A DNA stretch of 21,564 bases from a virus: positions 1-21,564 of the IMG/VR virus record IMGVR_UViG_3300027963_000382. The stretch is one strand, 5' to 3'. This document shows positions 1,971 to 18,541 of this stretch, in pieces (the first letter of the stretch is position 1; each line of letters opens with the position of its first letter). A program made the position numbers and the translations under genes. Under the pieces are notes generated by a model, which did not search any database, was not told the DNA's origin, and saw nothing but the letters and a program-made list of their open reading frames with translations.

Positions 1971-2648
1971 TTAGTTGTTATCAGACACTATAGCATTGGC
2001 CTGGGAGTTAGACATAACCCGCCGTGAGGTATACGCCCAAGGACTTTCGCCACCTAGTACCTTGACCATACGCTTGAGTGATCCGTTGATCCGTCTATGT
2101 ATGGTGGTATCAGACAAGTCAAACACGGTAGCTATCTGCCCCAATGTCATGTTCTCCTGGTATCTCATCTCAAGTATAATCCTATCGTCAGGATCTAACT
2201 TATCCATAGCAGAGCGTACGTCAATGATAGAGATCAAGAAGTTACCACCAGTAGCGGGGTCACCACCACCACCAGAGACCCGTATCTGCTGGGTAGCTTG
2301 CTGCTCATTGGCTTCATTCATGTGAGCGATTAGCTCCTCGACTATGCCAATGTTATAGAACGCTTCATCCCTGGTCTCATACCCAACGGCCTTGGCCTTA
2401 CGGCTACGGCAATACCTATCTGCCTCACGTTGCATGGCCTTAGCGCATTGGCGTATGCCACCCTTGCGATCCGCTGATTCTTGTTCATGGTTTAACCATT
2501 CCTTAATCTTATGGGGTCTCTTAAGTGCCCAGATAATAAGCTCTTGCTTAACATCTGCAGAATCAAAGTAGACTGCGTACCTATTATGTATCTGTCTGGC
2601 TACTGTTGCCGCTATCTCATCAGCTTCCACTAACCATTGATCGTTCAC
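1971..2648 (-). CDS. RNA polymerase sigma-70-like factor (actinophage type), 225 aa
   Basis: The layout fits actinophage sigma-like proteins. An N-terminal region-2-like helix pair (DSADVKQELIIWALKRP, about 29-45) precedes a basic linker (READRYCRSRKAKAVGY) and a Gly-rich hinge (SGGGGDP, 125-131). A clear region-4 helix-turn-helix follows at about 150-198 (LDPDDRIILEMRY, then MTLGQIATVFDLSDTTIHRR), which would contact the -35 element. The start is a GTG overlapping the stop of the metallophosphoesterase gene (GTGA). It is the last gene of the leftward operon. A role in switching host polymerase to late phage promoters is plausible from family knowledge but not shown. It could also be a region-4-only regulator, because region 2 is weak. 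Confidence 0.75.
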   Translation of the reverse strand: MNDQWLVEADEIAATVARQIHNRYAVYFDSADVKQELIIWALKRPHKIKEWLNHEQESADRKGGIRQCAKAMQREADRYCRSRKAKAVGYETRDEAFYNIGIVEELIAHMNEANEQQATQQIRVSGGGGDPATGGNFLISIIDVRSAMDKLDPDDRIILEMRYQENMTLGQIATVFDLSDTTIHRRINGSLKRMVKVLGGESPWAYTSRRVMSNSQANAIVSDNN

Positions 2649-3388
2649 TTACCCCATACCTTCCCTTCAGCAAAGAAAGAACCATCACGTGCGATAGGTA
2701 TGAGCTGCGGTACTACGGTCTTACCGTCTACCCATAGGATACCGAAACCCTGTTGCCAGTTACTTATGCCAGCCTTTAGATAGCTTGCTTGCTTGGCATC
2801 CATTAGGTTACCCACTTCCATACCCCATAGGGTACGTGTAGGCACACCAGAGAACGATTCAGTGTGGTGTACCAGACCCATGCGGTGTGTATGGCCACAT
2901 ACCACGCTCTTACCAGTCTTCTTGGCCAGGTTAAGGGCAGTAGTGCCACCATTTTGAGAGATGTTACCCTCATCACCGTGCATTAGTATCCAACCTGGTG
3001 CTAATTCGTATGGCTTCTTATGGTATTTGATACCAAGCTCAGGAAAGCGTAGGAAATTACCAATCTCTAGCTCAGGTAGGGAGATAAGGCCAGGTGCGCG
3101 CATCATAACGGTATTAAACAACCGATCAGTGTGATTACTGCGTATCACATGGTCTACCTTTAAGGATTCAAGCACAGCAACGGTAGTATCACGGTCACGG
3201 CCAATGGTACGCTCGTATTCTAGTGGTGTACCCTGTGCCCAACGGCTAATGGTTTGGAAATCCATCTCATCACCAACAGATACCACGGTATCAGGCTTGA
3301 ACGCACGAATGAATGTAGCTACGTTAGCAACAGCGCGCCTGTCATGGTAGGGAACTTGCAGGTCTGAGATGCAGACGATAGCTTTCAT
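2645..3388 (-). CDS. calcineurin-like metallophosphoesterase, 247 aa
   Basis: The two-metal phosphoesterase motifs appear in order: SDLQVPYHD near the N-terminus (D9; the usual D-x-H has Gln11 in place of His, with His15 nearby), GDEMDF (39-44), SNHTDR (84-89, the GNHD-type motif), MHGDE (136-140) and GHTH (165-168). These coordinate the dinuclear metal and phosphate. Substrates in this family range from nucleotides to nucleic-acid ends, and phage members usually sit with DNA-processing genes, as here. The start is ATG, with the DUF1599-like gene ending 1 nt upstream. The altered first motif is a point to check, since it could weaken one metal site. Confidence 0.85.
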   Translation of the reverse strand: MKAIVCISDLQVPYHDRRAVANVATFIRAFKPDTVVSVGDEMDFQTISRWAQGTPLEYERTIGRDRDTTVAVLESLKVDHVIRSNHTDRLFNTVMMRAPGLISLPELEIGNFLRFPELGIKYHKKPYELAPGWILMHGDEGNISQNGGTTALNLAKKTGKSVVCGHTHRMGLVHHTESFSGVPTRTLWGMEVGNLMDAKQASYLKAGISNWQQGFGILWVDGKTVVPQLIPIARDGSFFAEGKVWGK

Positions 3389-3389
3389 T

Positions 3390-3803
3390 TTAGTCCTCTA
3401 GTTTAGGCCACGTGCCATCAAGCACCATGAGTGCAATGATGCCGTAATTGGCTAGATCAAGGAATGAATCACGAAGTGACTCATGCTTAGGGTCTTGGTT
3501 CTCGTCAATCAAATTGTTAATGCGAGAGATCTTGTCATAGATACGTACCCGTAAGCCATTAAGCGGGCCACCAGGGGCACGTGCAATGTTAAGTGGGCCG
3601 TAGTCCTCTTGCTTTGAGATCAATACATTGCCGCAGTGGTCAATAACATCCCACATGTCAATGGCAAACTGTTGCATACTTAATTTCTTGTCGGTGGTAC
3701 TTGGACTAAGATAGTCCCACTCGTCGTATCCACTTGGATAATCCCCAAACCCATCGAGGTAAGGCACGTGATTAGGTTTTCCCAGTCTGTCTTTGTCACT
3801 CAT
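3390..3803 (-). CDS. DUF1599/Nmad1-like nucleotide-modification-associated protein, 137 aa
   Basis: The C-terminal two-thirds carries the pattern I associate with DUF1599 (Nucleotide modification associated domain 1): SKQEDYGPLNI (63-73), then RVRIYDKISRINNLI, then HESLRDSFLDLANYGIIALMV at the end. The family is all-helical and related to MazG-like or deaminase-like nucleotide enzymes, and occurs in phages with altered or policed nucleotide pools. The 40-residue N-terminus (YLDGFGDYPSGYDEWDYL) is acidic and aromatic and may be a separate tail. The ATG overlaps the upstream stop (ATGAGTGA) and follows a GGAAGAAG ribosome-binding site. The family call is from memory of the motif; the reaction is unknown. 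Confidence 0.6.
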   Translation of the reverse strand: MSDKDRLGKPNHVPYLDGFGDYPSGYDEWDYLSPSTTDKKLSMQQFAIDMWDVIDHCGNVLISKQEDYGPLNIARAPGGPLNGLRVRIYDKISRINNLIDENQDPKHESLRDSFLDLANYGIIALMVLDGTWPKLED

Positions 3804-3981
3804 CTTCTTCCTCTATTTCCCCACAATATTGAAACCATGGATGATCGTCACACTTCTCATAATAGTAACTTACAAACTTGCCTTTGGCAATGGGTCGCTC
3901 AACAATAAGGTAGTCCTGCTTAACTAGGAACGCAGGTATCTCAGCTCCGTCTGCAGGGCCACCGTAATACGTGTAAATCAT
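3796..3981 (-). CDS. hypothetical small protein beginning MIYTYYGGPADG, 61 aa
   Basis: I start this gene at the ATG at 3981, which overlaps the upstream stop by 4 nt, and not at an in-frame ATG 30 nt further up that lies inside the neighbouring gene. The N-terminus YYGGPADGAEIP recurs in many phage hypothetical proteins. The rest is a small beta-rich domain (YLIVERPIAKGKFVSYYYEK) with two Cys (about 44 and 53) and an acidic end (EIEEEDE). Function unknown. Confidence 0.65.
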   Translation of the reverse strand: MIYTYYGGPADGAEIPAFLVKQDYLIVERPIAKGKFVSYYYEKCDDHPWFQYCGEIEEEDE

Positions 3982-4499
3982 AGAACCAGCGTATCTACTG
4001 GCCCTTGGCACGTAGGAGAGTACCTAATAGAGGCCTTCACAGCCTCTCTAACACGGTTACGGGGACTATCCCAGTCACGGGTAGTGAACAATGACCCCAT
4101 TGCATAGGCGTAGCCTGATCCCGTGGCTATCATGTCGTATTCTGCTACTGACCAGCTCTCTGTAGTGATCTCAAAGAGCCTGCCACCTACACCAACAAGG
4201 AAATCAGCACCATTTTCCTCAGTGTTAATGTCTACCTTAAATAATTCTGCTGCTTTCTGTATAGCATCACAGAAATCTATGCGTAGCCAGGCTTCAAGGT
4301 TCTCATACACTGGCTTGGGATAGGTAATCAGGTGTGCAAGCTGACCTGTACCCTGGGATGCAGAGTAACCCATAATTATGGGTCCAACCTTGTGTATCTT
4401 AGGTGTAACAATGCTACCTATGAACTCTTTGTCTGACATACCACGGTCACCAGCCATGTAAACCTTACCGTTGTGGGCTATGCCCACTATGATCGTCAT
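3978..4499 (-). CDS. proteasome-beta/HslV-like Ntn-hydrolase peptidase, 173 aa
   Basis: After removal of Met1 the N-terminus is TIIVGIAHNGKVYMAGDRG. Counting Thr as residue 1 puts Asp at 17 and Lys at 33 (PKIHKV), exactly the catalytic Thr1/Asp17/Lys33 set of proteasome beta subunits and HslV. Further matches are IIMGYSASQG (fourth strand and turn) and ATGSGYAYAMGSL (the Ser129-type region). At 173 residues it is the length of HslV, with no propeptide, so it is ready to self-process by Met excision. It would act as an oligomeric threonine protease in the cytoplasm, but no unfoldase partner is encoded nearby. It lies between primase and small genes in the coupled operon (ATGA junctions on both sides). 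Alternatives are a non-proteolytic Ntn hydrolase or a capsid-related protease; the operon position argues against the latter. Confidence 0.8.
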   Translation of the reverse strand: MTIIVGIAHNGKVYMAGDRGMSDKEFIGSIVTPKIHKVGPIIMGYSASQGTGQLAHLITYPKPVYENLEAWLRIDFCDAIQKAAELFKVDINTEENGADFLVGVGGRLFEITTESWSVAEYDMIATGSGYAYAMGSLFTTRDWDSPRNRVREAVKASIRYSPTCQGPVDTLVL

Positions 4500-5131
4500 G
4501 CCAGCGCCCTTTCACGTAGCCATTCCTCGCCACCGTCCAAGAACACCTGGTTTACATCATGGTTCTCAGGTAATGAGATGACTACTGCCTTATCCAAGTC
4601 CTCTTTGATGCGCTTGGCCAACTCCATGCCAGGGTTACGGCCATCCTCTTTCAAATCATTGTCTGCAAAGATAACAATACGATCAAACCCTTCAAACATC
4701 TTAGGAAAGTGTGGCTTCCATTGGCTTACGCCAGCAATACCCACAGCAGGCACACCCACAAGAGCAGACATAACCAAGGTATCCAACTCACCCTCGCAGA
4801 TAGCAATAACATCTGAGCTTTTGTGTAGGTCAATGACGTTATACATCCCAACCTTTTGACCAGTAGGCCACAAGTATTTAGGAGAGCCTCCGTCAACTTT
4901 ACGAAACTTGATACCAACAATCCCAGTGGGAGTACGATAAGGGATACTAAGACAGCCAACAGCATGCTCATGGCCAGGCGCGGGGTCATTTACTGTACCT
5001 AGGCGGAACATACCTGCGGCTTCCTTGGTTATTCCTCGACCTAGCAGGTAAGAGGCCGTTGCTTGATCCAGTGTTCCTGCGTACTTCTCTGCGGTTTCCG
5101 TTAGCAATAGCTTCTGCTCTTGTGACAGCAT
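4496..5131 (-). CDS. DNA primase, TOPRIM catalytic half, 211 aa
   Basis: This carries the catalytic core of a DnaG-like phage primase without its zinc finger. It has the helical N-lobe typical of primases (ASYLLGRGITKEAAGMFRLG, about 26-45), a beta section (GCLSIPYRTPTGIVGIKFR), then TOPRIM motifs: CEGELDTL with catalytic Glu113, and FADND with Asp157/Asp159, and a DVNQVF element near the end. It would make RNA primers for phage replication. The zinc-binding half is the upstream gene at 4986-5348, in another frame, and the two ORFs overlap by 146 nt. Its frame is closed upstream by a TAG about 9 nt before the ATG, so the start cannot move much further up. Coupled to the HslV-like gene by ATGA. 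Confidence 0.85.
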   Translation of the reverse strand: MLSQEQKLLLTETAEKYAGTLDQATASYLLGRGITKEAAGMFRLGTVNDPAPGHEHAVGCLSIPYRTPTGIVGIKFRKVDGGSPKYLWPTGQKVGMYNVIDLHKSSDVIAICEGELDTLVMSALVGVPAVGIAGVSQWKPHFPKMFEGFDRIVIFADNDLKEDGRNPGMELAKRIKEDLDKAVVISLPENHDVNQVFLDGGEEWLRERALA

Positions 5132-5348
5132 CCTTAAAACCTATCTCTTCCTTCTTGGATACCACGTCATACACATCGCCATCGAACTGGCAGACAAAGC
5201 AATGGTATCGTTGCTTGTCTATGTTCACTGTTGCACTTGAGTGCGTGTCCTCATGCAGTACACACCGCATTGAGATGTAGCCATACTTGTTAGGTATTGT
5301 TGCACCGTAGTGCTCTAGTACCGTGGCAAGGTCAGGCTTGTCGGTCAT
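4986..5348 (-). CDS. DNA primase, CHC2 zinc-finger half, 120 aa
   Basis: The zinc ribbon of a DnaG-type primase is present: C29 and H32 (MRCVLHED), then C50 and C53 (HCFVCQFDGDVYDVV), preceded by the helix PDLATVLEHYGA that normally begins such enzymes. It binds template DNA and passes it to the TOPRIM core in the next gene. I start at the ATG at 5348, which overlaps the upstream stop (ATGA). From about residue 73 on, where it overlaps the TOPRIM gene, the sequence becomes Arg/Ser/Gly-rich and loses domain character, as if translation were meant to leave this frame. It may be a true split gene, a programmed +1 frameshift, or a single-base error in the sequence. Confidence 0.8.
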   Translation of the reverse strand: MTDKPDLATVLEHYGATIPNKYGYISMRCVLHEDTHSSATVNIDKQRYHCFVCQFDGDVYDVVSKKEEIGFKDAVTRAEAIANGNRREVRRNTGSSNGLLPARSRNNQGSRRYVPPRYSK

Positions 5349-5524
5349 AGTAGCTTGAGCACCAAGTCGCATGGATCTCCACCCTCATCCCATTGCTCAC
5401 GCTCTTCATCGGTTGCGTACTCGTAAGTACCATCGTGAGTAGCGCAAATGCTATCTGTTACCCACCCCTTTTGGATACCGTATTGTACCCAATCAGCACG
5501 TTCATTCCATTGTTCAGTGTTCAC
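5345..5524 (-). CDS. hypothetical acidic protein, 59 aa
   Basis: I place the start at a GTG at 5524 overlapping the resolvase stop (GTGA), because upstream ATGs in this frame lie inside the resolvase gene. The product is acidic and Trp-rich (NTEQWNERADWVQYGIQKGW, then YATDEEREQWDEGGDP), mostly helical by eye, with two isolated Cys. No known domain. It sits between the resolvase and primase genes and may be a small DNA-metabolism accessory. Confidence 0.55.
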   Translation of the reverse strand: MNTEQWNERADWVQYGIQKGWVTDSICATHDGTYEYATDEEREQWDEGGDPCDLVLKLL

Positions 5525-5877: not shown

Positions 5878-6079
5878 CGTCATCCTTAAAGATTTCATTC
5901 CAGCACTCAGGATGAGTGCCACTAATTATCTGCTCACGTATTGGTGCAAGTAGATCAGGAAAAGCATCTTTAGCATCAGCACCATTAAGATACCTAGTGT
6001 AATCATGTTCCCAAATAGTTAACATGCCATGCTTCTTACAGCTTGGGCAGTCTTTAGTTACGTATGTCTTGTAGCTCAC
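5867..6079 (-). CDS. zinc-ribbon protein, 70 aa, paralogue of the 1020-1271 product
   Basis: It starts at a GTG overlapping the helicase stop (GTGA). CPSCKKHG (11-18) gives one cysteine pair and HPECWNEI (56-63) offers a further His/Cys. The block YLNGADAKDAFPDLLAPIRE followed by QIISG corresponds to the block in the plus-strand protein at 1020-1271 that ends RERFISG; both end CW-E plus Asp residues. The second cysteine pair of that paralogue is reduced to one Cys here, so a zinc site would be incomplete or use His56. Function unknown; probably a small nucleic-acid or protein-binding module. Confidence 0.65.
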   Translation of the reverse strand: MSYKTYVTKDCPSCKKHGMLTIWEHDYTRYLNGADAKDAFPDLLAPIREQIISGTHPECWNEIFKDDDGK

Positions 6080-6903
6080 GATAATCCTCTCCAGTATTCT
6101 GCATTGCTACCACCTTGGCGATCGTTGTACAACGTCATGCGAGAAGCATCAGCATACAACACCGTAAAGTTAGCACCACTTGCACTGTTCTTAGCAAAAC
6201 GATTCTTAACACACGCTATGCGGTATTCATTAGTGTCATGGTCCATTGCTACAGTAAGGATCATCTCAGGTAACTGGCTGATCTTACCCTGAATAGACTT
6301 GCGTGATGGTGGTAGCTCTGGTCTACCTTCACCCTCTGACGTATGGTGCAACAGAAATACTGCTGCTTCTGTTTGCCTGGCCACGTGGTGCATAGCCTTG
6401 GCTATGTCACGCATACCAGTCCACTCATTGTCGTGTAGTGCAGCTACGTTCATTAAGTTGTCAATGATAATCAAGTGAGGGTATTCCCCAAACGCTTCAC
6501 CGTACGCCTGGATAGACAGATCAATGTCATCCAAGGTAGGTGATGGATCAAAGCTGAACTGTAAGTTCTTCAATGTTTCCAGTTCGTCTTGGTAAAACTC
6601 ATACCCGTTGCCACTGTTGAATGATTCCTCAACACTGGACACCTGATTACCTGTGATAACTGCGGCAGCTCGGATCGCTGTGGTGTAAGCATCTGTATCA
6701 GCACTGACGTACAGTGTTGGCACATCTGACTTAACCGCATAGAACAAAGCAAGCAATGACTTACCACTATTGGGTTGGCCAGCAATCATGGTTACCTGTC
6801 CCCTACGGAACCTGACACCATCATTAGCCAACGCAGGAAACAGATCAGGAAGTAGTTGCGCTCCACTCTTTTGCTTGTTCGCTGCTTGAGCGAGAGTCAA
6901 CAT
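6076..6903 (-). CDS. RecA/DnaB-like replicative helicase ATPase, 275 aa
   Basis: A single RecA-fold ATPase. Walker A is GQPNSGKS (42-49), Walker B is LIIIDNL (Asp148), and LLHHTSEGEGRPELP supplies the HHT sensor loop common in RepA/DnaB-like phage helicases; CVKNRF near the end fits the last strand. It lacks a DnaB N-terminal domain, so it resembles the short phage RepA/RadA-like helicases that unwind DNA at the fork as a hexamer. It would work with the split primase downstream. A GAGGA site lies just upstream of the ATG, and the start lies 59 nt inside the preceding HTH gene. Confidence 0.8.
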   Translation of the reverse strand: MLTLAQAANKQKSGAQLLPDLFPALANDGVRFRRGQVTMIAGQPNSGKSLLALFYAVKSDVPTLYVSADTDAYTTAIRAAAVITGNQVSSVEESFNSGNGYEFYQDELETLKNLQFSFDPSPTLDDIDLSIQAYGEAFGEYPHLIIIDNLMNVAALHDNEWTGMRDIAKAMHHVARQTEAAVFLLHHTSEGEGRPELPPSRKSIQGKISQLPEMILTVAMDHDTNEYRIACVKNRFAKNSASGANFTVLYADASRMTLYNDRQGGSNAEYWRGLS

Positions 6904-16834: not shown

Positions 16835-16964
16835 CTACTTGAACCTTGTCTGTAATTTCCATACCACATGGTCCACAAAAACATAGGTCTGCAGGGTCTT
16901 CAAAAGGAATCGCAATGCTTTGGTTTTCACAACCATCTGTGTGACAAGTTAAATTGATAATCAC
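16824..16964 (-). CDS. small Cys-rich zinc-ribbon-like protein, 46 aa
   Basis: I start at the GTG at 16964, whose first base is the last base of the collagen-like gene's TAG (TAGTG). The product has CHTDGC (7-12) and CFCGPC (33-38) and a hydrophobic strand between (SIAIPFEDPADL), fitting a small zinc ribbon. A longer frame upstream overlaps the collagen-like gene and is not used. Function unknown; probably a small virion or assembly factor. Confidence 0.55.
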   Translation of the reverse strand: MIINLTCHTDGCENQSIAIPFEDPADLCFCGPCGMEITDKVQVDGL

Positions 16965-18541
16965 TATTGAGCCGTTCCTGCCGAGTAAGCGGATGTAGTC
17001 ATTTGTATTGCTTGCCAACCAGCACTTAATGCACTTGTCCATGTCTGCGTAGCCGCACTGGGATTGTAAACATAGTAAGTAAATCCAGTAGTGCTTGAAG
17101 CAAGTCCTCTTGGAACAAGGTTTCCAGTGCCAGAAGGAGCGCCCTGCAATGTTGTTATAACAACTGGGGCAACACTAAATCTACTAGCAGGAAAAGTGAC
17201 AGAAGCATTTGTTTGTCCACTTGCAACAACAGAACCTGTTGCAAAACTAATAAGACCAGCAGAAATTGCATATGGAAGTGGTTTACCACTAGAAGAGTTA
17301 GTTGCACTAGTTGCTGTACTTGCATTTCCAATTACACTACCAGTTAGTGTTCCACTAAAACCATTTTGTGCGTAGATATTTCCAATAGAACTTACGTTTC
17401 CCGAACCATCTACTTTGAACACAGGTGCAACAGCATCTTGACCATCTGGAGTATTCCTAAGTTCAAATAAATTACCAGAGTGAGTTCCAGCAGCAACGGT
17501 TGTATCAATAATAATTGCTGATGAGTTAGCACTTGTTGTAGCAGTAACACCACCAGTTAATGCTGGACTTGCAGAAAATACCAGTGACCCAGTACCAGTT
17601 TCATTGGAGATAACTCCAGCAAGTTCTGCAGAAGTTGTAGCAGCAAACTGTGATAATTTACCTGCGGTAGTAGCAATACCAGTTACTGCACCAGTAGTAC
17701 CATTAACTGAGTTAACACCAGTAACAGCGCCAGTAGCACCATTGAAAGATGCAACATAGGCTAACGGTGTTGAGCCTGTCGCTCCTGTTGCACCTGTTGC
17801 ACCTGTAGCTCCATTAGTTCCGTTAGTACCATCAGTACCCGTAGCACCCGTTGAACCTGTTGGACCAGTGCTACCTGTAGCACCAGTTGGACCTGTAGGT
17901 CCCGTACTTCCAGTAGAACCATTAGTGCCATTGGTACCTGCAGTACCAGTCGCTCCAGTAGGTCCAGTAGGACCTGTCGCACCAGTTGCGCCAGTGGCTC
18001 CCGTAGCACCATTCGTACCATTCGTACCATTAGTTCCGTTAGTACCTGTAGGTCCAGTAGGACCTGTTGCACCCGTACTTCCAGTAGAACCAGTAGAACC
18101 TGTTGGTCCTGTAGGACCAGTTGCGCCTGTTGCACCATTAGTTCCATTTGTACCAGAGCTACCTGTTGGTCCAGTAGATCCAGTATTGCCTGTCGATCCA
18201 GTAGGACCAGTAGGACCCGTTACTGTACTTGCTGCTCCTGTTGCACCAGTTGGACCAGTTGGACCAGTTGGACCAGCGACTGTACTATTAGCACCAGTAG
18301 AACCAGTGCTACCAGTTGCACCCGTAGAGCCAGTTGGACCTGTAGGTCCAGGAACCGTAGAGTTTGCGCCCGTAGGTCCTGTAGGACCCGTAACAGAAGG
18401 ACCAGTTGATCCAGTTACACCTTGGGTTCCTTGAGGACCAATGACACCAAGTTCAATGGTAACGGTTTCTGAGTAGTTAACGTCCATAGTGGTACGTTCA
18501 ACAGGAATTTCAACAACGGAAGTAATTTCAGTTAATGCCAT
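16964..18541 (-). CDS. collagen-like tail fibre protein rich in GPT triplets, 525 aa
   Basis: Residues 1-33 are a short beta-rich anchor ([19 protein letters not shown]). From about 35 to 257 the chain is Gly-X-Y collagen-like sequence dominated by GPT, GAT, GST and GTN triplets, interrupted by N-S-T-V spacers, and would form a triple helix. The C-terminal ~265 residues are a globular fibre-tip domain with [20 protein letters not shown] and a beta-rich end ([14 protein letters not shown]). Threonine at most Y positions replaces the proline normal for animal collagen; in bacterial GPT repeats such as BclA these threonines carry O-linked sugars. The next-but-two gene downstream is a glycosyltransferase. 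TAATG coupling to the gene above. Confidence 0.85.
17768..18440 (-). repeat. degenerate 9-nt tandem repeat coding for collagen triplets
   Basis: Minus-strand GGN-CCN-ACN and related units (Gly-Pro/Ala/Ser-Thr) repeat over about 670 nt. Third codon positions vary freely while the amino acids are fixed, which shows protein-level selection and avoids long exact DNA repeats. Some blocks repeat exactly over 12-20 nt. Confidence 0.8.

Follow-up and report, generated by a model that had tools for sequence, protein, structure and literature searches.

A predicted proteasome-type threonine hydrolase in the primase operon of a probable freshwater actinophage

A small gene in a phage replication operon encodes a protein resembling a proteasome subunit, which raises the question of the family to which the protein belongs and of how a phage would use it. 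The window analyzed here is the whole stretch of 21,564 nucleotides of IMG/VR record IMGVR_UViG_3300027963_000382, a fragment of a phage genome of ~40 kb (a near-full-length relative measures 40,245 bp). The original prediction described the gene product as an HslV/proteasome-beta-like peptidase with an exact Thr1-Asp17-Lys33 spacing, encoded at positions 3978–4499.

The coordinates of the gene stand, but the reading frame lies on the minus strand, with a start ATG at 4499 and the stop at 3978; a plus-strand reading was rejected, as it contains stops throughout. The gene, called here Ntn, and its active-site codons are:

3978..4499, minus strand: proteasome-homolog N-terminal threonine hydrolase (AAH-like, PHROG 1040; Ntn), 173 amino acids
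4494..4496, minus strand: codon of Thr2, which is the catalytic Thr1 of the mature enzyme; it adjoins the start codon
4446..4448, minus strand: codon of Asp18 (mature Asp17), invariant in the alignment
4398..4400, minus strand: codon of Lys34 (mature Lys33), invariant in the alignment
4368..4370, minus strand: codon of Gly44, aligned with the oxyanion-hole Gly of HslV

Once Met1 is subtracted, Thr2, Asp18 and Lys34 fall exactly on the predicted spacing. In a MAFFT alignment of 170 distinct homologs, drawn from cultured phages as well as environmental viruses, each of the three residues is present in 170 of 170 sequences. The column of Gly44 contains Gly in 151 of them, Ala in 18 and Ser in one, and Ser128-Gly129 of the window protein occupies the place of the HslV GSG motif; the oxyanion Gly and the GSG motif are nearly invariant in this set. 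The threonine codon lies immediately 3′ of the start codon in all of the first 96 homologs aligned, and the protein therefore has no propeptide. The gene is under purifying selection (dN/dS 0.08–0.13 against ten close relatives) and this, together with the PHROG 1040 match, the invariant triad and a confident structural model, shows that Ntn is a real gene and not a chance reading frame.

The HMM search proposed with the original prediction gave a divided answer. The profile of PHROG 1040, named “peptidase HslV family”, matches the full length of the protein (residues 1–172, E 7.8e-18), while the protein falls far short of the models of the classical enzymes: the HslV equivalog TIGR03692 (12.1 bits, cut-off 157.75), the model TIGR03690 of the bacterial 20S beta subunit (15.2, cut-off 191.9) and the beta-subunit model TIGR03634 (19.7, cut-off 224). 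The score for the Pfam Proteasome family is just below its cut-off (21.4 versus 22.4). The nearest non-phage proteins found are encoded on plasmids of Rhizobium, Sinorhizobium, Paraburkholderia, Streptomyces and Bacillus, and we read the rhizobial, Streptomyces, Paraburkholderia and Bacillus proteins as the published AAH family (PMC8665760). In an hhalign comparison, a profile of the window relatives matched six AAH-like proteins from bacteria along 170 columns (E 1.5e-42, 31% identity), and the same profile gave 5e-8 with E. coli HslV, which is a single sequence, so that the comparison is not strict. Judged by these scores, the window protein is neither HslV nor a 20S beta subunit. Its affinity to the AAH/PHROG 1040 group, known from phages before (PMC8665760), is much stronger. 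The HslV label is consequently dropped, while the wider description, a phage-encoded proteasome-beta-like enzyme with an intact active site, is borne out by the PHROG 1040 match, the fold and the invariant triad. Two pattern scans of bacterial and archaeal genome contigs confirmed no relative, but their sensitivity is limited and plasmid relatives do exist.

On the Sinorhizobium fredii plasmid pSfreGR64b, an AAH-like gene annotated as hypothetical (L454:6001–6546) is located inside the nif cluster, with nifQ on one side and iron-sulfur assembly/nifS genes on the other. A link of this rhizobial gene to nitrogenase maturation or turnover is possible.

The AlphaFold2 model of the window protein, made with a 37-sequence alignment, has a pLDDT of 91.8 and a pTM of 0.88 and predicts the proteasome-beta/HslV/BPH fold. 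The closest solved structure is that of BPH, the beta-proteobacterial proteasome homolog (5ovt; Z 21.2, 165 residues aligned with rmsd 2.3, 19% identity), followed by HslV (6kui, Z 19.8), and these matches span residues 2–173. Residue 2 of the model superposes on residue 1 of BPH and on residue 1 of E. coli HslV (1e94). The model contains helices at residues 49–57, 65–86, 130–139 and 146–160 and a last strand at 169–172. The model of a protein from the clade of the isolated phage F5 (pLDDT 88.8) also has BPH as its best match, with Z 18.5. These models support the fold of the single subunit with confidence.

Group I proteasome homologs were surveyed by Fuchs, Alva and Lupas in 2021, who described PPH and AAH in phages; the survey reported neither an AAA+ partner nor a telling context, and AAH in no actinophage (PMC8665760). 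The window protein resembles AAH in being compact, with helices H1–H4 and without insertions, S12/H5, a propeptide or an AAA+ partner. It differs in that the window relatives form their own supported clade in the tree and are actinophage-borne, unlike any AAH of that survey. It shares with PHROG 1040 members the triad and the start codon directly before the Thr, but is only about 24–33% identical to the best-matching cultured-phage members, and the cultured-phage search returned no close cultured member for the freshwater actinophage branch of the window. PPH is likewise a phage-borne group I homolog; however, it has ~140 residues and no helix H2 (PMC8665760), and identity with PPH was rejected for a protein of 173 residues with H2 at 65–86. 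The loop between H1 and H2 has seven residues and is non-acidic, whereas BPH possesses a long acidic pore loop (PMC8665760). The likeness to HslV extends to triad spacing, length, fold and oxyanion Gly, but no HslU accompanies the window protein.

The replication-operon context claimed in the original prediction is confirmed by ATGA overlaps at both ends of Ntn, where the Toprim primase gene stops within the Ntn start and a small acidic gene starts within the Ntn stop. Given these overlaps, Ntn looks like a translationally coupled member of the operon, which runs from a PD-(D/E)XK exonuclease through a RecA/DnaB-like ATPase, a RusA-like resolvase and a split primase to Ntn, and continues with a DUF1599 protein, a metallophosphoesterase and a sigma-70 region-4 protein. 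The features around Ntn are:

6076..6903, minus strand: RecA/DnaB-like replication ATPase (AAA_25, E 8.2e-14), not an AAA+ unfoldase
4986..5372, minus strand: zinc-binding part of the split DnaG-like primase (Zn_ribbon_DnaG, E 6.6e-13)
4496..5131, minus strand: Toprim part of the split DnaG-like primase (Toprim_3, E 1.9e-8)
3796..3981, minus strand: small acidic protein downstream of Ntn, with no match in the PHROG search
3390..3803, minus strand: DUF1599 (nucleotide-modification-associated) protein (E 1.3e-7)
2645..3388, minus strand: metallophosphoesterase (phrog_221, E 4.1e-76)
1971..2648, minus strand: sigma-70 region-4 protein (E 6.3e-10)

The claim that no ATPase is encoded nearby is true of AAA+ unfoldases but not of ATPases in general, as the operon includes the one at 6076–6903, which looks like a replication protein. 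The absence of an HslU-like partner was upheld in near-full-length relatives, where neither an HslU/ClpX-like ATPase nor ClpP was found. HslU-type AAA_2 (PF07724) had no match in 15 related records, ClpP none in 17, and the AAA family (PF00004) gave short P-loop matches alone, in G004 and G005, among 11 records. An AAA+ partner was rejected, as the PF00004 matches are short and are taken to be the replication ATPase, and PF07724 had none. PADLOC gave no match to known defence systems.

Two other genes deserve mention. The window encodes at 16964–18541 a 525-residue protein with long collagen-like Gly-X-Y repeats (GPTGPTG, GATGATG), which is probably a tail or fibre protein; the long reverse-strand reading frames over this gene are probably spurious. 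In the relative G001, a gene resembling DNA cytosine methyltransferases by eye (L104:11091–11840) lies between the resolvase and the primase, and the window has none.

The large terminase of the window is 48% identical to those of phages LanE43-AprE7 (E7) and F5, isolated on Ca. Planktophila (PMC10202952), and 45% identical to those of Streptomyces phages such as Immanuel3. These relatives, together with a WhiB gene in the window, indicate that the host is very probably a freshwater actinobacterium. No literature on a proteasome in Nanopelagicales was found. The isolate F5 also carries a homolog (PHROG 1040, E 6.9e-28), which is located directly after the portal gene and outside the primase operon, and the homolog of E7 is 91.6% identical to it; the presence of the gene beside the portal in isolated Planktophila phages is new. 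In the tree, the window type and the F5 type fall into two different clades, each with support. Homologs are also found in Microbacterium phage Pumpernickel and Actinomycetia phage DSL-LC01, so that the lack of actinophage AAH noted in 2021 was closing anyway. The related Streptomyces phages with the 45% identical terminase yielded no homolog.

To avoid selection on Ntn itself, contigs were chosen by their large terminase or capsid protein. All 12 contigs chosen by terminase (36 kb or longer) and all 5 chosen by capsid protein (38 kb or longer) have exactly one PHROG 1040 gene, which gives the new observation that 17 of 17 near-full-length genomes, from the two phage groups nearest to the window, contain exactly one copy of Ntn, at either of two loci. 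Contigs of 30–35 kb are mixed, as fragments would be, and G027, G031 and G066 lack the gene.

The window type of Ntn also occurs, at 60% identity, in complete or near-complete miniphages of ~15 kb, one of which has a 127-bp terminal repeat. These actinophage-like genomes (L101, L102, L438–L445) come from environmental viromes. Ntn is present in six of 16 miniphage contigs picked by their portal protein. Among the genomes compared in full, a gene for a 160-residue nuclease-like protein accompanies it in 5 of 5 Ntn-positive miniphages, both genes are absent from 5 of 5 Ntn-negative ones, and the flanking genes are the same in positive and negative genomes. Miniphages thus gain or lose Ntn and the nuclease-like gene together as a two-gene cassette, which has not been described before. 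The Pfam PDDEXK match of the 160-residue protein is weak (E 0.0046). In five of about fourteen distinct contexts, Ntn has beside it a small protein in which an E-x-K motif was recognized by eye, a pattern noticed after the fact; PHROGs calls none of these neighbours a nuclease and the Pfam PDDEXK match is limited to the miniphage one, so nuclease-type neighbours as a general pattern are a hint.

Ntn is a variable gene. Within the branch of the window, the slot after the primase is occupied by one of three distant types, namely the window type, a type nearer to that of F5 (two genomes) or a third type (one genome), and the Toprim primase beside this slot is 66–97% identical. Among 12 relatives compared with F5, Ntn ranks last in conservation out of 25 core genes, with a median identity of 38%, against a median of 84% for the portal adjoining it. 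The all-pairs median for Ntn is 41%, with WhiB similar and two internal virion proteins lower (25–29%). According to these identities, very few core genes equal Ntn in divergence or exchange, and yet its triad is fixed, an observation not made before. The pattern could also result from ordinary recombination between phages. In the F5 group, the large internal virion proteins between portal-Ntn and scaffold (L197:22668–30342 and relatives) belong to the least conserved genes, with 25–30% identity, although the genes beyond them are 68–84% identical.

The divergence of Ntn tracks best that of replication-block genes 10 kb away (rho 0.67–0.79, Mantel p 0.0005 to 0.003, n 10–11), while its correlation with the adjacent terminase and internal proteins is weak; a coupling to the internal virion proteins was rejected (rho 0.06 to 0.19). 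The primase of the same replication block does not track Ntn (rho 0.35). With a small sample and many genes compared uncorrected, the co-divergence with the replication block is a hint only and may reflect phage descent. The best co-variation with Ntn is shown by p123 of F5-like phages, a small, acidic, zinc-finger-like protein (L197:9857–10228 and homologs), which ends in EGGA or EGGE and was considered as a Pup-like tag. This candidate was rejected. Its tail is encoded by GAAGGCGGAGCGTGA, or by a variant with one base changed, just ahead of the next start codon, and this stretch keeps its nucleotides at synonymous sites too; the tail is therefore better explained as a translation-initiation region.

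We consider it somewhat probable that Ntn is an active threonine peptidase of the AAH-like/PHROG 1040 type, which would remove or trim host proteins in the replication phase without a dedicated ATPase. As there is no propeptide, a host methionine aminopeptidase would take off Met1 and expose Thr1. The fold suggests that the subunits would form a homo-oligomeric ring, as in HslV and BPH, and would hydrolyze peptides. With no dedicated ATPase in use, the substrates would be proteins that are short, unfolded or folded only loosely, or else a single specific partner. In the infected cell, host proteins that hinder the phage would be removed or trimmed during replication. Such a host-takeover role fits the location in the primase operon, the way distant alleles replace each other in one fixed slot, and the joint gain and loss with the nuclease-like gene. 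The role is the least certain step, and the timing and the host-protein targets are guesses.

The main rival is a virion-assembly protease, which would trim scaffold, portal or internal virion proteins in place of a prohead protease; overall this is rather unlikely. The position of Ntn directly after the portal in F5 and its relatives is the usual one for a head protease and suggests a late, structural role for the portal-adjoining type in related phages. No Peptidase_S78 or ClpP-type protease was moreover found in 13 of 13 ~40-kb genomes searched, and the internal virion proteins downstream of the F5-type Ntn are hypervariable too. However, the divergence of Ntn does not follow that of these proteins, the gene of the window lies in the primase operon and outside the head module, and the related Streptomyces phages have no detected homolog. 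In miniphages a head-protease role is unlikely, because the Ntn-positive genomes tested already have a Peptidase_S78-like region fused to the major capsid protein (E 4e-7 to 1e-5).

Docking of Ntn on a host ATPase (Mpa/ARC, ClpX or ClpC), redirecting degradation to chosen host proteins, is improbable, although the phages themselves have no detected AAA+ unfoldase, their hosts are actinobacteria and some actinobacteria have Mpa. Mpa docks on alpha rings, in pockets between alpha subunits, and the finding of a single proteasome-like gene (PHROG 1040) per genome speaks against an alpha-type partner and hence against an alpha ring; the Mpa/ARC docking put forward earlier accordingly finds no support. 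A narrower role in amide-bond chemistry, as a connectase-like ligase or as the processing enzyme of one peptide and not as a general peptidase, is quite improbable as well. Related proteasome homologs include connectase, a monomeric ligase (PMC8665760), and the fast replacement of Ntn could mirror a changing partner, but the compact four-helix, HslV/BPH-like model has no long S3/S4 insertion such as that of connectase. A decayed or non-functional relative of HslV, as the scores far under the HslV models might indicate, has a negligible probability in view of the invariant triad, the low dN/dS and the one copy kept in all near-full-length genomes.

Beyond the host-directed peptidase favoured above, it is conceivable, although doubtful, that a proteasome-type peptidase is obligatory in this phage group at one of two loci, with very distant alleles swapped as the host target changes; in this reading the target would be a host defence or regulatory protein. 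If true, phages of this group would possess a means of proteolysis that needs no ATPase and whose turnover is driven by the host, perhaps assisted by a small nuclease-like protein.

The literature yielded no reported function for AAH/PHROG 1040 proteins, whether from phages or from bacteria. Ntn is an ordinary member of this known but uncharacterized enzyme family, yet its setting is unusually informative. The rule of one copy at two loci, and the divergence around a fixed active site, provide clues to its role that were absent from the 2021 survey. Since Ntn has been traced to freshwater actinobacterial phages, including the isolates E7 and F5 with a cultured host, its function is directly testable.
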